Shown here: positions 29,375-42,424 of the stretch, in pieces | How the letters are laid out: each line of letters starts with the position of its first letter | Position numbering within the stretch: position 1 is the stretch's first letter | DNA from: Consotaella salsifontis | GTDB lineage: Bacteria; Pseudomonadota; Alphaproteobacteria; Rhizobiales; Rhizobiaceae | NCBI RefSeq assembly: GCF_900167365.1 | Contig: NZ_FUXL01000018.1 | Location: forward strand, 1-64,000 | DNA length: 64,000 nucleotides | Direction of reading: 5' to 3' | The notes under the pieces: model-generated | Seen by the model: the letters and a program-made list of their open reading frames with translations, nothing else | What the model was told of the DNA's origin: nothing | The model's database searches: none | Translations under genes and position numbers: made by a program

Positions 29375-29938
29375 TCAGTCGGCGCGACGGACATAGGTGA
29401 TTTCATTGGTATCGACAATGATCCTCTCGCCCGCCTCGATGAACGGCGGCACCATCACCCTCACACCGTTCTCCATGATCGCGGGTTTGTAGGACGACGC
29501 CGCCGTCTGGCCCTTCACCACGGGGTCGGCCTCGACGATGGCCAGCGTCACCTGGTCGGGGAGCGACACGCCGATGGGCCTCTCCTCGTAAAGCTCGACG
29601 GTGACGACCATGCCGTCCTGCAGGAAGGCCGCGCGCTCGCCGACGAAATCCTTCTGGAGCTCAAGCTGCTCGTAGGACTCGGAGTCCATGAACACCAGCA
29701 TTTCGCCTTCGGCATAGAGGAATTGGTAGTCCTTCTGCTCCAGGCGCACGCGCTCCACCGTCTCCGACGCCCGGAAGCGCTCGTTGAGCTTGGTGCCGTC
29801 GAGCAGGTTCTTGAGTTCGACCTGAGCGAATGCTCCGCCCTTGCCGGGCTTTACGTGAGCCGTCTTCACGGCGGCCCAAAGGCTGCCGTTGTGCTCGATG
29901 ACGTTGCCGGGACGGATTTCGTTTCCGTTGATCTTCAT
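29375..29938 (-). CDS. efp: Translation elongation factor P
   Basis: This 187-residue EF-P relieves ribosome stalling at proline runs. The KOW-like N-terminal domain carries [18 protein letters not shown] with the modifiable lysine in the PGKGG loop (Lys34 region). OB domains follow with [13 protein letters not shown] and [12 protein letters not shown]. The start MKINGNEI at 29938 matches the family; the TTG start 4 codons earlier has no ribosome-binding site. No epmA or epmB gene is in the window. The proline-rich DctM tail encoded at 37.5 kb is a likely client. Confidence 0.93.
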
Positions 29939-30056
29939 AGTGGTGCTCAAAGGTGCGGGAATGGGGGGGCAAAAATGCCGATTGGCCGCTCAAGACCACA
30001 AATTCCATCGCCGTTCAAGCCTGACGCGCGCTAAGAGCCGGGAGATGCCCTGGCCT

Positions 30057-35528: not shown

Positions 35529-36173
35529 ATGATGCAGGCCGCGATTTCGTTTGTCGTTTTTGTTTCCTTGATGGCCCCTCCCGCCATGGCGGAGGGGAGC
35601 GATATTGCCTCGCGCAGAAACCCGGCCGAGGCGATCGCCGGACGGGCGGCAGAGACCGAATCCAACGAATCGCAATCTTCTCCTGGGACGCGTGAAGAAC
35701 GGCTCGACGCGCTGTTCGTGGAGCTCAAACGCGAATCATCGGCACCCAAGGCCGCGCAGATCGCCTCCCGCATTGAGTCGGTGTGGAACGAGAGCGGCAG
35801 CGCGACCATCGATCTCCTGCTGCAATGGTCCGGCGAGGCGATGGCGAACGACCAGGGCGCCGCGGCTCTCGATCTCATCGATCAGGCTATCGCGCTTCGG
35901 CCCCAGTTGGCTGAACTTTGGAACCGGCGGGCGACGCTCCACTTCACCAGCGACCGCATCAGCAAGTCGATTTCCGATCTTCAGCAGGTGCTGCGGCGCG
36001 AACCGCGCCACTTCAATGCCCTGATCGGGCTGGCGACCATCTTTCAGCAGATCGGGCGAAAAGAGCAGGCTCTCGACATCTACATGCGCGTGCTCGACGT
36101 CTATCCGGCGAACCAGGGCGCGCAGTCGGCCGTCTCGCGGCTCGCGGAGGAACTGGCGGGCGATCGCGCCTGA
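35529..36173 (+). CDS. Exported tetratricopeptide (TPR) protein
   Basis: This 214-residue protein has an N-terminal signal peptide (about residues 1-21, ending AMA) and about three TPR units (about 95-205) with LIDQAIALRPQLAELWNRRATL, SDLQQVLRREPRHFNALIGLATI and ALDIYMRVLDVYPANQGAQ. Likely a periplasmic scaffold. Function is unknown; it lies alone after ykgO. The first residues could start a few codons later (second Met), with little effect. Confidence 0.8.
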   Translation: MMQAAISFVVFVSLMAPPAMAEGSDIASRRNPAEAIAGRAAETESNESQSSPGTREERLDALFVELKRESSAPKAAQIASRIESVWNESGSATIDLLLQWSGEAMANDQGAAALDLIDQAIALRPQLAELWNRRATLHFTSDRISKSISDLQQVLRREPRHFNALIGLATIFQQIGRKEQALDIYMRVLDVYPANQGAQSAVSRLAEELAGDRA

Positions 36174-36338: not shown

Positions 36339-37469
<1,131 letters not shown>

Positions 37470-37487
37470 GCTCTTCACCCACTGCAT

Positions 37488-37525
37488 GAAAAAGAGGCCG
37501 TGGCGTCGGCGCCGCGGCCTCTTTT
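37488..37525. terminator. Bidirectional terminator between TRAP binding protein and dctM
   Basis: GAAAAAGAGGCCG-...-CGGCCTCTTTTCG forms a strong stem with A/T runs on both sides, serving both convergent genes. Confidence 0.85.
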
Positions 37526-37543
37526 CGTTGGCAACTCGCTTCG

Positions 37544-39523
37544 TCAGTTGAACGATGGCGGCTGGCTGAGATCGACGGGCGGCGTTTGACCCGAGGATTG
37601 CCCCGTGTCGGGCGGGTTCTGTGCCGGGGCGGCGGCCGCCGGCTGCGGCGGAGTGTCGGTCGGACCACCCAGCGCGGGTGGAGGACCGCCCAGCGTCAAG
37701 GGCGGCAGGCCCATGGCGGGTGCTGTCGAAGAGGAGCCGCCGTCCGCCGGAGGGGTGCCTTCCGATGCGCCACTGCCGGGGCCGCCAAGGTTCAGCGGTG
37801 GCAGGTCGAACGACGGGGCAGGAACCGTGGCGCCGTTTGACGGCGAGGCGGGAGTTCCTGGCGCCCCGAGCGGCGGCAGACCGAAGCCCCCGTTGCCTGC
37901 CCCCCCGTCGAAGCTCGGCGGCGCGAACTCGATCGCGCCCTCGAGCGGCTTCGCCTCCGTTTTATAATGCAGCACGAGATAGGGCACGGCGATGATCAAA
38001 AGGATCATGAGGAACTGGATGCCGATGAAGGGCAGGCTGCCCCAGTAGATGGCGCCGGTGCGAACCGGAGGCATGAGACGGCCGGTCACGGCGTCCCGCC
38101 ATTCGCGGGTCGGTGCGACGGAGCGCAGATAGAACAGCGAGAAGCCGAAGGGCGGCGTCAGGAAGCTGGTCTGGAGGTTGATGCCGAGGATGACGCCGAA
38201 CCAGACGAGGTCGATCCCGAGCTTCTGCGCAATGGGTGCGAGCAGCGGCACGAGGATGAAGGCAATCTCGAAGAAGTCGAGAAAGCAGCCCAGGATGAAA
38301 ACGATGATCGTGACGACGAACAGGAAGCCGTATTCGCCGCCGGGCAGCTCGAGAAGCAGGCTCTCCAGCCATATGTTGCCGTTGATGCCGTAGAAGGTCA
38401 GGCCGAAGACGCGGGCGCCGATGAGAATGAACATGACAAAGGCGGACAGCGTCGTTGTCGCCTCGACCGAGGAGCGCAGCGTCTTGAAGTCCAGCCTGCG
38501 CTTGAGGAAGGCGAGCGAGACTGCGCCCACCGCGCCCATGGCGCCGCCTTCCGTCGGCGTTGCGATGCCGAGGAAGATCGTGCCGAGGACCAGGAAGACG
38601 AGAGCGAGCGGCGGGATGAGGACGATGATCACCTGACTTGCCAGTCGCGACAGGATCGAAAGCCCGAGAAGCTGATTGGCGACCGCCAGGAGATAGGCGA
38701 GAAGCACGGCCGTCACCGCCGAAGAGACGAGCCGCGTCTCATCCCGCATGTCCGCAAAAATCGTGTCGTGGGCCACGAGATAGACCGCGACGGCGCCGGC
38801 CAGGACGAGGATGAGCGAAATCACGCCGCCGCCGAGTGTGCGCGCCTCGGGCGGCAGCGAGGGAACGAGCTCTGGCCTGGTGATGGACAGGGTGAAGATA
38901 TAGCCACAATAGACGGCGACGATGATCAGCGCCGGCCACATCGCGCCGATATACATATCGCCGACGGAGACGCCGAGCTGATCGGCCATGACGATCAGCA
39001 CCAGCGAGGGCGGAATGATCTGTGCGAGGGTGCCGGAGGCGGCGATGGTGCCCGTCGCGACGCGCTGGCTGTAGCCGTAGCGCTGCATGATGGGCAGCGA
39101 GATCAGCCCCATGGCGATGACCGAGGCGGCAACGACGCCGGTGGTCGCCGCGAGAAGCGCGCCGACGAGAATCACCGCATAGGCGAGGCCGCCCCGGATG
39201 GGGCCGAAAAGCTGGCCGATGGTGTCGAGAAGGTCCTCGGCCATGCCCGAGCGCTCGAGGATCAGGCCCATGAAGGTGAAGAAGGGAACGGCGAGCAGCG
39301 TATCGTTGCTCATGATGCCGAACACCCGCTCGGGCTGGGCGTTGAGGAGCGGCCAGAACAGATGAATTTCTCCCGGTGCGGAGCTGGAGAGCGCGACGCC
39401 GGCGACGAAATAGAACAGACCGCCGGCGGCGAGCGTCAGCGCGACGGGATATCCGATCAGCAGCATCGCCATGACGGAGATGAACATGATCGGCGCAAGG
39501 TTGTGGGCGATGAGCTCAAGCAT
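37544..39523 (-). CDS. dctM: TRAP transporter large permease DctM with proline/glycine-rich tail
   Basis: This 659-residue protein has about 12 transmembrane helices in residues 1-530 (e.g. PVALTLAAGGLFYFVAGVAL, GTLAQIIPPSLVLIVMADQL, EGGAMGAVGAVSL), the elevator-type DctM fold. The last 126 residues (about 534-659) are a low-complexity Pro/Gly/Ala/Ser tail with three LPPL units. Usual DctM proteins are about 430-530 residues, so the tail is extra. The ATG at 39523 has an AGAGGCGG site and overlaps dctQ by 8 bases. It works with the binding protein at 36363. Confidence 0.88.
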   Translation of the reverse strand: MLELIAHNLAPIMFISVMAMLLIGYPVALTLAAGGLFYFVAGVALSSSAPGEIHLFWPLLNAQPERVFGIMSNDTLLAVPFFTFMGLILERSGMAEDLLDTIGQLFGPIRGGLAYAVILVGALLAATTGVVAASVIAMGLISLPIMQRYGYSQRVATGTIAASGTLAQIIPPSLVLIVMADQLGVSVGDMYIGAMWPALIIVAVYCGYIFTLSITRPELVPSLPPEARTLGGGVISLILVLAGAVAVYLVAHDTIFADMRDETRLVSSAVTAVLLAYLLAVANQLLGLSILSRLASQVIIVLIPPLALVFLVLGTIFLGIATPTEGGAMGAVGAVSLAFLKRRLDFKTLRSSVEATTTLSAFVMFILIGARVFGLTFYGINGNIWLESLLLELPGGEYGFLFVVTIIVFILGCFLDFFEIAFILVPLLAPIAQKLGIDLVWFGVILGINLQTSFLTPPFGFSLFYLRSVAPTREWRDAVTGRLMPPVRTGAIYWGSLPFIGIQFLMILLIIAVPYLVLHYKTEAKPLEGAIEFAPPSFDGGAGNGGFGLPPLGAPGTPASPSNGATVPAPSFDLPPLNLGGPGSGASEGTPPADGGSSSTAPAMGLPPLTLGGPPPALGGPTDTPPQPAAAAPAQNPPDTGQSSGQTPPVDLSQPPSFN

Positions 39524-40163
39524 CGTTGCGGCCCGCCTCTGGCTTTTCTGTGTGCGCCCCTTCTTCTCCACGCCGCCAACTGATCACCGGGTCCATGTCT
39601 TTGCCGGCTTCAGGCTCGATATCCTCCTCGTCAGGCTCCTCCACCTCGTGTCGATGGCCGCTGAGAACGGCGACGCGCTTGATGATTTCGGAGACGCCCT
39701 GGGCGATCAGCACGATGAAGCCGAGGAGAATCAGCCCCTTCGCCGGCCATAGCAAAAGGCCCCCGGCGTTCATCGAGCGCTCGCCGGAAAAGAACGATCG
39801 CCAGAAGAATGACCAGGACAGCCACGTCATCAAAATGGCGAACGGCATCAGAAACAGGATGTGGCAGACGAGATCGATCCAGTTGCGCGCGCGCGGGGAG
39901 AAGCGCGAGGACAGGACATCGATCCGCACATGATCGTTGCGCTGCAGCGTCCAAGCAGTCGCGAGCATGAAGACCGCGCCGAAGAGATACCACTGAAGCT
40001 CGAGCCAGGCGTTGGACGAGATGTCGAAAGCCTTGCGCAACGCCGCGTTGACGGCGCTGACAAGAATCGCGGCAAGGATGAGCCAGGATACGCTCTTTCC
40101 GATCCATGCGGTCACGCGGTCGATGGCGTGCGACAGCGTGAGAAGCCCCGTCATTATGGTCAA
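39516..40163 (-). CDS. dctQ: TRAP transporter small permease DctQ
   Basis: This 215-residue protein has four hydrophobic helices (SWLILAAILVSAVNAALRKA, LQWYLFGAVFMLATAWTL, LVCHILFLMPFAILMTWLSW, GLILLGFIVLIAQGVSEII). It includes the DctQ features SNAWLELQWYLFG and NDHVRIDVL. It scaffolds the large subunit in the membrane. The long charged tail (about 170-215, EEPDEEDIEPEAG) is cytoplasmic or disordered. Its 3' end overlaps the dctM start by 8 bases, so the two are one operon. Confidence 0.88.
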   Translation of the reverse strand: MTIMTGLLTLSHAIDRVTAWIGKSVSWLILAAILVSAVNAALRKAFDISSNAWLELQWYLFGAVFMLATAWTLQRNDHVRIDVLSSRFSPRARNWIDLVCHILFLMPFAILMTWLSWSFFWRSFFSGERSMNAGGLLLWPAKGLILLGFIVLIAQGVSEIIKRVAVLSGHRHEVEEPDEEDIEPEAGKDMDPVISWRRGEEGAHTEKPEAGRNDA

Positions 40164-40378: not shown

Positions 40379-42424
40379 TCACGCGCTCGCGGCATCCGGC
40401 GCCTCGGGTTCGGCCCCGCTAAAGAAGAGCTGCCGTGCGACAACCGCCGCAACGAGCACCAATCCCACCGACGTCGAAACGACCTCGGGGGCGACGAGGA
40501 GAGCGGCCGCGATGCCGAGAAGCCAGCGCTCAACGCGGTACAAGGGGCCGGCAAGCCACCCCGCGAAGGCGGCCGAGAGCGCCGTGATGCCAATGACGGT
40601 TCCGGTGAAGGCCAGGAAGAAGCGGAACCAGCTGAAGTCATCGACGACGATCAGAAGCGAGGGCGCGAAGACGAAGACGAAAGGCACCAGCGCCTTGCCC
40701 ATGCCGAGGCGGAACGCGGTGTTGCCGGCCCTGAACGGGTTGGCGTTCGCAATGCCCGCGCCGGCGTAGGCCGCCAGCGCCACGGGGGGCGTGATGTCCG
40801 CCAGAACGCCGTAGTAGAAGACGAAGAAGTGGGCGACGAGCGGCGCAACGCCGAGAAGGCCGAGCACCGGGGCGGCGACGGACACCATGATGAGGTAGGT
40901 CGCGGTCGTCGGGATGCCGCAGCCCATGACGATGCAGACCATCGCCGTCAGAATCAGCGTGATGAGCAGCGTCAGGGTCGACACGCCCATGATGCCGAAG
41001 GGGATGAAGGGCGCGATGGCCGAGGCCCACGTGCCGGCGGTCGAAGTCACCATGTAGGCGATCTTGAAGGACACGCCGGTCAGCGTCACGACGCCGATGA
41101 TGATGCCCACGGTCGCCGCCGCGGCGCCGACGGCCAGGGCGTATTTGGCGCCGAGGATGAAGGCGTCGAGAACGTCCCTCCAGGTGATGCGGTTCAGCGG
41201 ATTGACGAGGCCGATCACGATGCAGGCGGTGATGGCGTAGAAGGCCGCGAGATAGGGCGTGAAGCCCTGAAGCAGAATCGAGATGAGGATGATGAGCGGG
41301 ATGACCGTTGGCCAATCGCGCTTCAGGATGGCACCGACGCGCGGCAGCTCGTCACGAGTCAGGCCGCGCAGTCCCAGGCGCTTCGCCTCGAAGTGGACCT
41401 GACAGAGAACGCCAAAGAAGTGCATGAAGGCCGGCACGATAGCGGCGGTGATGATGGTCGAATAGGAGACGCCGAGAAACTCGATCATCAGGAAGGCGGC
41501 CGCGCCCATGACTGGCGGCGTGATCTGGCCTCCGGTGGAGGAGGCGGCCTCGACGGCGGCGGCGAAATGGCGCTGATAGCCGATGCGGATCATCGCGGGG
41601 ATGGTCAGCGCGCCGGTCGTCACCGTGTTGGCGATGGACGAGCCGGAGATCGAGCCGAGCAGCGCCGAGGAGAAGACGGAAACCTTCGCCGGGCCGCCGG
41701 AATAGCGGCCGGCAATGGCCATGGCGATGTCGATAAAAAGCCGCCCGAGGCCGATGCGTGTGGCCAGAACGCCGAAGAGAACGAAGTGGAAGACGTAGGT
41801 TGCCACCACGCCGACTGGCAGGCCGTAGATGCCCTGGCTGGTCAGGTAAAGGTGATTGACCAGCATCCGCCAATCTGCGCCGGGATGAACCAGAACGCCC
41901 GGCGCGTACTGACCAAACAGTCCGTAGGCCATGATCACGATGGCAATCACCGGCAGCGGCCAGCCCATGGCCCGGCGCGTCGCCTCGAGCAGCACGACGA
42001 TCATGACCGTGCCCATGATGACGTCGATCGGCAGCGGATTGCCGACGCGGAAGGCGAGATCGTCGAAGATGTAGGGGACGTAGAGAGAGGCGGCGATGGC
42101 GGCGATGGCGAGCAGCCAGTCGATCACTGGAATGCCAAAGGGCCGCCAAAGGCTCGACGGATAGAGCTGCTCCTGCCCCTTCTTCGTCGCGGCGAAAACG
42201 ATGAAGATGAGGGAGAGAACGAAGGCAAGATGGACGCCGCGATGGTTGACCTCCCTCAGGAGGCCGAACCCGGCCGTGTAGTAATGAAAACAGGAGAGCA
42301 GGAACAACAAGGTGGCCGCGATCCCTGCCGCCACCTTGCCGAGCGGCCGGAAGCGAACCTCGGGATCGAATTTTTCCTCCAGTTCCTTGATGGCGGCTGG
42401 GTCGGCATCCTTGTCGTCGAACAT
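40379..42424 (-). CDS. TRAP transporter fused permease (TAXI type)
   Basis: This 681-residue protein is the fused 4TM-12TM permease of TAXI-type TRAP systems, in which DctQ and DctM parts are one chain. About 16-18 hydrophobic helices are visible; conserved stretches include VSVFSSALLGSISGSSIANTV (in parts), SSTGGQITPPVMGAAAFLMIEFLGVSY and GCGIPTTATYLIMVSVAAPVLGLLGV. It follows the TAXI binding-protein gene on the same strand, separated by a hairpin at 42465-42494. The substrate is unknown; TAXI systems often move glutamate or C4-dicarboxylates. Confidence 0.9.
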   Translation of the reverse strand: MFDDKDADPAAIKELEEKFDPEVRFRPLGKVAAGIAATLLFLLSCFHYYTAGFGLLREVNHRGVHLAFVLSLIFIVFAATKKGQEQLYPSSLWRPFGIPVIDWLLAIAAIAASLYVPYIFDDLAFRVGNPLPIDVIMGTVMIVVLLEATRRAMGWPLPVIAIVIMAYGLFGQYAPGVLVHPGADWRMLVNHLYLTSQGIYGLPVGVVATYVFHFVLFGVLATRIGLGRLFIDIAMAIAGRYSGGPAKVSVFSSALLGSISGSSIANTVTTGALTIPAMIRIGYQRHFAAAVEAASSTGGQITPPVMGAAAFLMIEFLGVSYSTIITAAIVPAFMHFFGVLCQVHFEAKRLGLRGLTRDELPRVGAILKRDWPTVIPLIILISILLQGFTPYLAAFYAITACIVIGLVNPLNRITWRDVLDAFILGAKYALAVGAAAATVGIIIGVVTLTGVSFKIAYMVTSTAGTWASAIAPFIPFGIMGVSTLTLLITLILTAMVCIVMGCGIPTTATYLIMVSVAAPVLGLLGVAPLVAHFFVFYYGVLADITPPVALAAYAGAGIANANPFRAGNTAFRLGMGKALVPFVFVFAPSLLIVVDDFSWFRFFLAFTGTVIGITALSAAFAGWLAGPLYRVERWLLGIAAALLVAPEVVSTSVGLVLVAAVVARQLFFSGAEPEAPDAASA

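Follow-up and report, generated by a model that had tools for sequence, protein, structure and literature searches.

We analysed a stretch of 64,000 nucleotides from Consotaella salsifontis (the window), in which a gene for the large permease subunit (DctM) of a TRAP transporter lies on the reverse strand at 37544..39523. From the ATG at 39523 this takM-like gene encodes a protein of 659 aa, and an alternative upstream GTG start would give 675 aa. The protein scored above the curated cut-off of the Pfam DctM family PF06808 (313 bits compared to 23.8; E 3e-93, residues 14-516) and above that of TIGR00786 (297.8 bits compared to 268.45). The gene for the TRAP small permease, dctQ or takQ (39516..40163, reverse strand; PF04290, 5e-19), is directly upstream of takM and overlaps it by 8 bases. 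The gene for the binding protein, dctP or takP (36363..37469, forward strand; PF03480), is convergent with takM, such that both TRAP partners flank takM in the window. takP and takQM are arranged tail to tail, so that the two transcription units, one for the binding protein and one for the permease, run towards each other. The window TakP matched Rhodobacter sphaeroides TakP (2hzk) with an E-value of 1.1e-153, residues 1-364 aligning with 1-361 and the C-terminal helix region being included. Because of this near-full-length match and of the dctQ gene directly upstream of dctM, the window system is of the TakPQM type. We infer from TakP homology that its substrates would be alpha-keto-acid-like monocarboxylates. 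A fused TRAP permease gene (40379-42424; TIGR02123) adjoins takQM on the same strand and constitutes a second TRAP system alongside the first. Beyond its DctQ domain, TakQ has a further ~45-50 residues that are rich in Glu and Asp and would be cytoplasmic given a SiaQ-like topology; in the 14 of 80 loci that were looked at, the C-terminal ends of TakQ relatives diverge.

Past the end of the Pfam domain at residue 516, TakM continues with 'VLHYKTEAKPLEGA' and then with 129 residues rich in Pro, Gly, Ala and Ser. This C-terminal tail (residues 531-659; 37547..37933, reverse strand) contains 31 Pro, 23 Gly and 16 Ala, and not a single Lys, Arg, His, Cys, Trp or Tyr. It includes the units FGLPPL (residues 547-552; 37868..37885), FDLPPL (residues 572-577; 37793..37810) and MGLPPL (residues 604-609; 37697..37714) and ends with the motif DLSQPPSFN (residues 651-659; 37547..37573), all encoded on the reverse strand. 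The initial annotation had reported a low-complexity tail with LPPL repeats on this DctM protein and had placed it correctly. A search of the tail against Pfam and NCBIfam at E 0.001 returned no domain. The DNA of the tail reaches 76% GC, and Tandem Repeats Finder detected no DNA tandem array at 37400-38050.

To describe the fold of TakM we used its AlphaFold model, which had a mean pLDDT of 77, with the membrane part mostly confident and the tail mostly below 50. The pLDDT was below 50 at 126 of the 659 residues, and 118 of these were in stretches between residues 530 and 649. The model aligned with PpSiaM (7qha_B) with a Z score of 38.1 and an rmsd of 2.9 A over 416 residues (10-523 on 1-427) and thus has the elevator fold of the SiaM type. 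Since this alignment covers SiaM chain positions 1-427, the TakM tail begins where SiaM stops. According to PMC9971032, SiaM has an N-out/C-out topology. Of the 165 TakM-clade members (defined below) in which the loop preceding the last helix was readable by script, 156 carry a net positive charge there, and this positive loop, together with a window tail lacking Lys and Arg, agrees with the positive-inside rule. From SiaM homology and the positive loop, the TakM tail is most likely in the periplasm, on the same side as TakP.

Midway along TakM the model also shows an additional helical hairpin (residues 234-286; 38666..38824, reverse strand), made up of helices 234-255 and 261-286. As the hairpin adds two helices, the side on which the C-terminus is predicted to lie should be unchanged. 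Some tailed relatives are without the hairpin, their matches covering residues ~1-232 and then 293 onward. Longer inserts occupy the same site in other relatives such as L092, as judged from an alignment to TakM of 43 of the 58 relatives collected by that stage, in which every second row was examined. The hairpin was rejected as an explanation of the tail because relatives whose matches skip it (L177, L178 and L184) are still tailed.

The initial annotation had proposed an alignment of DctM homologues to gauge the extent of tail conservation. We drew relatives from family, order, class and phylum genome samples and from the best 80 named-genome loci. The 268 DctM ORFs collected were merged into 230 distinct ones; alignments ending before residue 490 were excluded, which removed most paralogues from the same genome, and the ends of these paralogues were measured separately. 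A FastTree tree was built from 223 cores, taken from closed ORFs scoring 140 bits or more whose core exceeded 380 residues. In this set 208 proteins were tailed, one of them outside the TakM clade. The TakM clade, in which the window gene is joined with L269, has 209 members and a support of 0.999. The tail proved to be present in 207 of these 209 members, extending 13-174 residues past the core with a median of 59. Recruitment was not driven by the tail, as 73 of the 74 members reached (also) via tail-less queries are tailed. A frameshift or assembly artefact as the source of the TakM tail, a possibility named in the initial annotation, was ruled out because a similar tail terminates 207 of the 209 clade members. 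The other refuting outcome named there, a tail missing from all relatives, did not occur either.

The two tail-less members differ in kind. L269, the deepest branch of the clade, ends at the last helix and lies beside a DctP with 45% identity to the window TakP, suggesting that the arm is not indispensable. In L162 the 3' ends of takM and takP overlap (L162:5400-5600) and both proteins are shortened; this looks like a deletion that removed the takM tail and the TakP end together, or else like an assembly fault. The sister and outer DctM proteins L190-L196, L189, L100 and L274, with a nearest DctP of at most 43% identity, have no tail. The one exception among these outer proteins is L292 (at 2534), a sister-clade member with a Pro-rich end of 32 residues that was perhaps gained independently. 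Within its own genome the window protein also stands apart, in line with the earlier remark that such a tail is unusual for DctM. The genome carries about 19 DctM genes (20 rows reduced to 19 places, two rows being one gene), of which the window gene and 17 others were measured and C10 was left out. Fifteen of these 17 end 7-16 residues past the Pfam match, and the remaining two are fused permeases above the TIGR02123 cut-off with hydrophobic ends. Overall, the tail marks the whole TakM subfamily, and the tree points to a single main gain close to the base of the clade. The initial annotation was right about an unusual LPPL tail and missed its spread through a subfamily, the TakPQM identity of the system and the periplasmic side expected for the tail.

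To characterise the tails, we compiled 208 of them, each of at least 13 residues, from closed ORFs with at least 300 bits, a set that differs slightly from that of the tree. Motif counts were compared with within-tail shuffles; as the tails are related, the counts are not independent and the comparison is not a probability. The composition is for the most part prone to disorder: the fraction of Pro plus Gly had a median of 0.39 and was at least 0.30 in 152 of the 207 clade tails and below 30% in 55. Arg made up 0.5% of tail residues, Cys was found in none of the 208 tails, and none contained a hydrophobic stretch of 19 residues. Tail length and sequence drift by lineage, and in distant relatives the tail is often acidic or short, at about 13-35 residues. 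The initial annotation had given EF-P, whose gene lies in the window at 29375-29950 (TIGR00038, over the cut-off), special weight for translation of the proline runs. The case for this is weak: PPP occurs once in the window tail and is missing from 152 of the 208 tails, so a need for EF-P would not be shared by the tails in general.

Several short motifs recurred in the tails far more often than in their shuffled counterparts. A strand-like hydrophobic IxIxxP just past the core was found in 96 of the 208 tails compared to a shuffled mean of 2.9, LPP[LIMF] in 52 compared to 7.3, and at least two LPP[LIMF] units in 23 compared to 0.12 (maximum 2 in 300 shuffles). DLSxPP was present in the last 12 residues of 67 tails compared to a shuffled mean of 0.01. 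In a thinned set of 150 tails, the corresponding counts were 71 for IxIxxP, 36 for LPP[LIMF], 18 for at least two units and 34 for DLSxPP. The wider form D[LM][SGT]xPP occurs in 79 of the 209 clade members, whose tails are 25-174 residues long. In 67 of these 79 the first residue of the last copy is precisely the ninth counted back from the C-terminus, irrespective of tail length; 25 of the 79 bearers have at least two copies. This motif is absent from 130 of the 209 members, and LPP[LIMF] from 157. In 90 of 208 tails the end is Phe or Ile followed by N, D, K, E or Q, compared to a shuffled mean of 4.2. Among the ends listed, those of L254, L256-L259, L262 and L263, from elsewhere in the phylum, have another sequence in common, of the kind DPMKGLLESIKKE, perhaps a lineage-specific helix that replaces DLSxPPxF.

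Conservation around takM was followed in the best 80 named-genome loci. A TakQ-like ORF adjoins TakM on the same strand in all 80. Of the 60 loci whose stretch included a TakP-like ORF of at least 45% identity, 58 have this ORF downstream in convergent orientation. The TPR gene next to takP in the window (35529-36173) was rejected as a conserved partner, since a search with it at E 1e-5 in the same 80 loci, with flanks of up to 4 kb, gave no match. For the association between tail and TakP, we took the 226 DctM proteins with at least 180 bits and removed four that run off their locus; of the resulting 222, a DctP was in the stretch for 156. Where the nearest DctP was at least 45% identical to the window TakP, 141 of 143 DctM proteins were tailed, and where it was less than 45% identical, 11 of 13 were tail-less. 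In the two tailed cases of the latter group, L278 and L263, another DctP in the locus has 59 and 48% identity, respectively. Because the association is in essence a single event on the tree, it is weak evidence for direct contact. The idea that the tail tracks the C-terminal swap helix of TakP was unsupported, as the DctP proteins of some tail-less sisters (L190, L191, L193 and L100) also extend through that region.

The usual picture of TRAP transporters is one of dependence on freely diffusing binding proteins. We tentatively propose that the tail is a flexible periplasmic arm of the predicted TakPQM-type importer, which may loosely capture the TakP dimer by short motifs; on sequence and model grounds this reading is quite possible. 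In such an arrangement, the disordered arm of Pro, Gly and Ala would extend into the periplasm after the last membrane helix as a flexible line, bearing as candidate binding motifs the strand-like IxIxxP, the LPPL units and DLSxPPxF at its free end. These motifs would loosely hold dimeric TakP, the proposed partner, and raise its local concentration, and loaded TakP could then dock, deliver and rebind quickly. Speaking for capture are the spread of the tail across the TakM clade, its co-occurrence with TakP, the predicted periplasmic side and the excess of motifs over shuffles; speaking against it are the variation of the motifs between lineages, the many short or acidic tails and the tail-less L269. 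The earlier suggestion that the tail recruits a partner is plausible in this light. A more specific form of the proposal is somewhat doubtful: the arm would act as a disordered periplasmic leash, with motifs along it and at its end holding TakP such that one subunit loads and the other delivers. Available parts of the paper on R. sphaeroides TakP (PMC1839085), which gives its helix-swapped dimer and binding data, describe the dimer as stable and tight and suggest that it may be retained on the membrane protein. Modelling on HiSiaPQM (PMC9352664) indicated that dimers of the TakP type could dock, with their second monomer directed away from QM.

Alternatively, the tail may be an entropic brush or spacer whose bulk and flexibility, a matter of composition rather than sequence, bar non-cognate binding proteins, peptidoglycan and neighbours from the docking face of TakQM. 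The wide variation in length (13-174 residues) and sequence, the high Pro and Gly content, and the lack of both Cys and long hydrophobic stretches would suit such a role, as would the about 19 DctM genes of the genome, which imply many possible binding proteins. However, a brush needs neither a motif fixed at the C-terminus, as in 67 of the 79 bearers, nor a strand-like start, and tails of 13-25 residues would serve it poorly. Since tails of the motif-bearing subset vary along their length but preserve their end, binding motifs are favoured over a pure brush, and we consider the latter unlikely. It is quite unlikely that the tail is an envelope anchor which positions the transporter by binding peptidoglycan, a porin or another envelope protein, although the initial annotation had also raised anchoring. 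This role would be consistent with the predicted periplasmic location, with the motif fixed at the C-terminal end in many tails and with a reach that might allow 126 extended residues to span the periplasm. The reach of tails of 20-30 residues is nevertheless too small, no third conserved neighbour was seen among the best 80 named loci, in which the TPR gene was the sole one looked for, and the presence of the tail on TakM rather than on other DctM proteins would be left unexplained. We regard as very improbable a proteolytic handle, in which a periplasmic tail-specific or PDZ protease would read the exposed C-terminus and set TakM turnover: it would account for the placing of the motif exactly at the C-terminus and for the excess of ends in Phe or Ile plus N, D, K, E or Q, but not for long tails and internal LPPL copies. 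Lastly, a low-complexity extension that is neutral and persists by chance or as drifting repeats in GC-rich genomes is very unlikely despite the variable lengths and the GC content of the tail DNA, given that 207 of 209 clade members in samples up to phylum level are tailed and nearly all sister DctM proteins are not, that the motifs are far above shuffles, and that there is no tandem array in the DNA.

By family, TakM is an ordinary TRAP permease; what is new is a tail shared across its subfamily. In the literature searched, consisting of the accessible portions of PMC, with preprints and most subscription journals outside it, neither TakM nor DctM was seen to be described with a disordered tail, and the available parts of the TakP paper (PMC1839085) describe no TakM tail. 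A 2021 review (PMC8276074) calls the advantage of TakP-type binding-protein dimers unknown; a periplasmic arm beside dimeric TakP would offer a testable answer to this open question. If the leash arrangement is true, it would make the system a TRAP importer with non-covalent tethering and would explain what the TakP dimer is for. Expression constructs cut at the last helix would lose a widely kept part of TakM.

Like the window, the TakPQM system of Rhodobacter, known from the TakP structures 2hzk and 2hzl, has a TakP-type binding protein beside its QM genes. The sample, which did not contain R. sphaeroides TakM, included a TakM-clade protein of R. capsulatus DSM 1710 (L133) with a tail of 76 residues past the core, which makes the tail a property of such systems and not of the window genome alone; the stretch around that gene held no TakP-like ORF. 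The R. capsulatus tail is another Pro/Gly sequence and differs from that of the window TakM with its three LPPL units and DLSQPPSFN. The membrane fold is common to TakM and to SiaQM (PpSiaQM, 7qha; HiSiaQM, 7qe5 and 8thi). In contrast to SiaM (427 aa), which stops at the last helix, TakM adds the mid-protein hairpin and the tail, and the SiaQM structures, being without such a tail, could not reveal an arm. In the ABC importers OpuA and GlnPQ, as described in the excerpts available, covalently linked binding domains provide an analogous flexible link that keeps the binding protein near the translocator. Unlike in these fusions, takP in the window is a separate, convergent gene and the TakM tail contains no Pfam domain; any hold on TakP would, by analogy, be non-covalent and made through short motifs.
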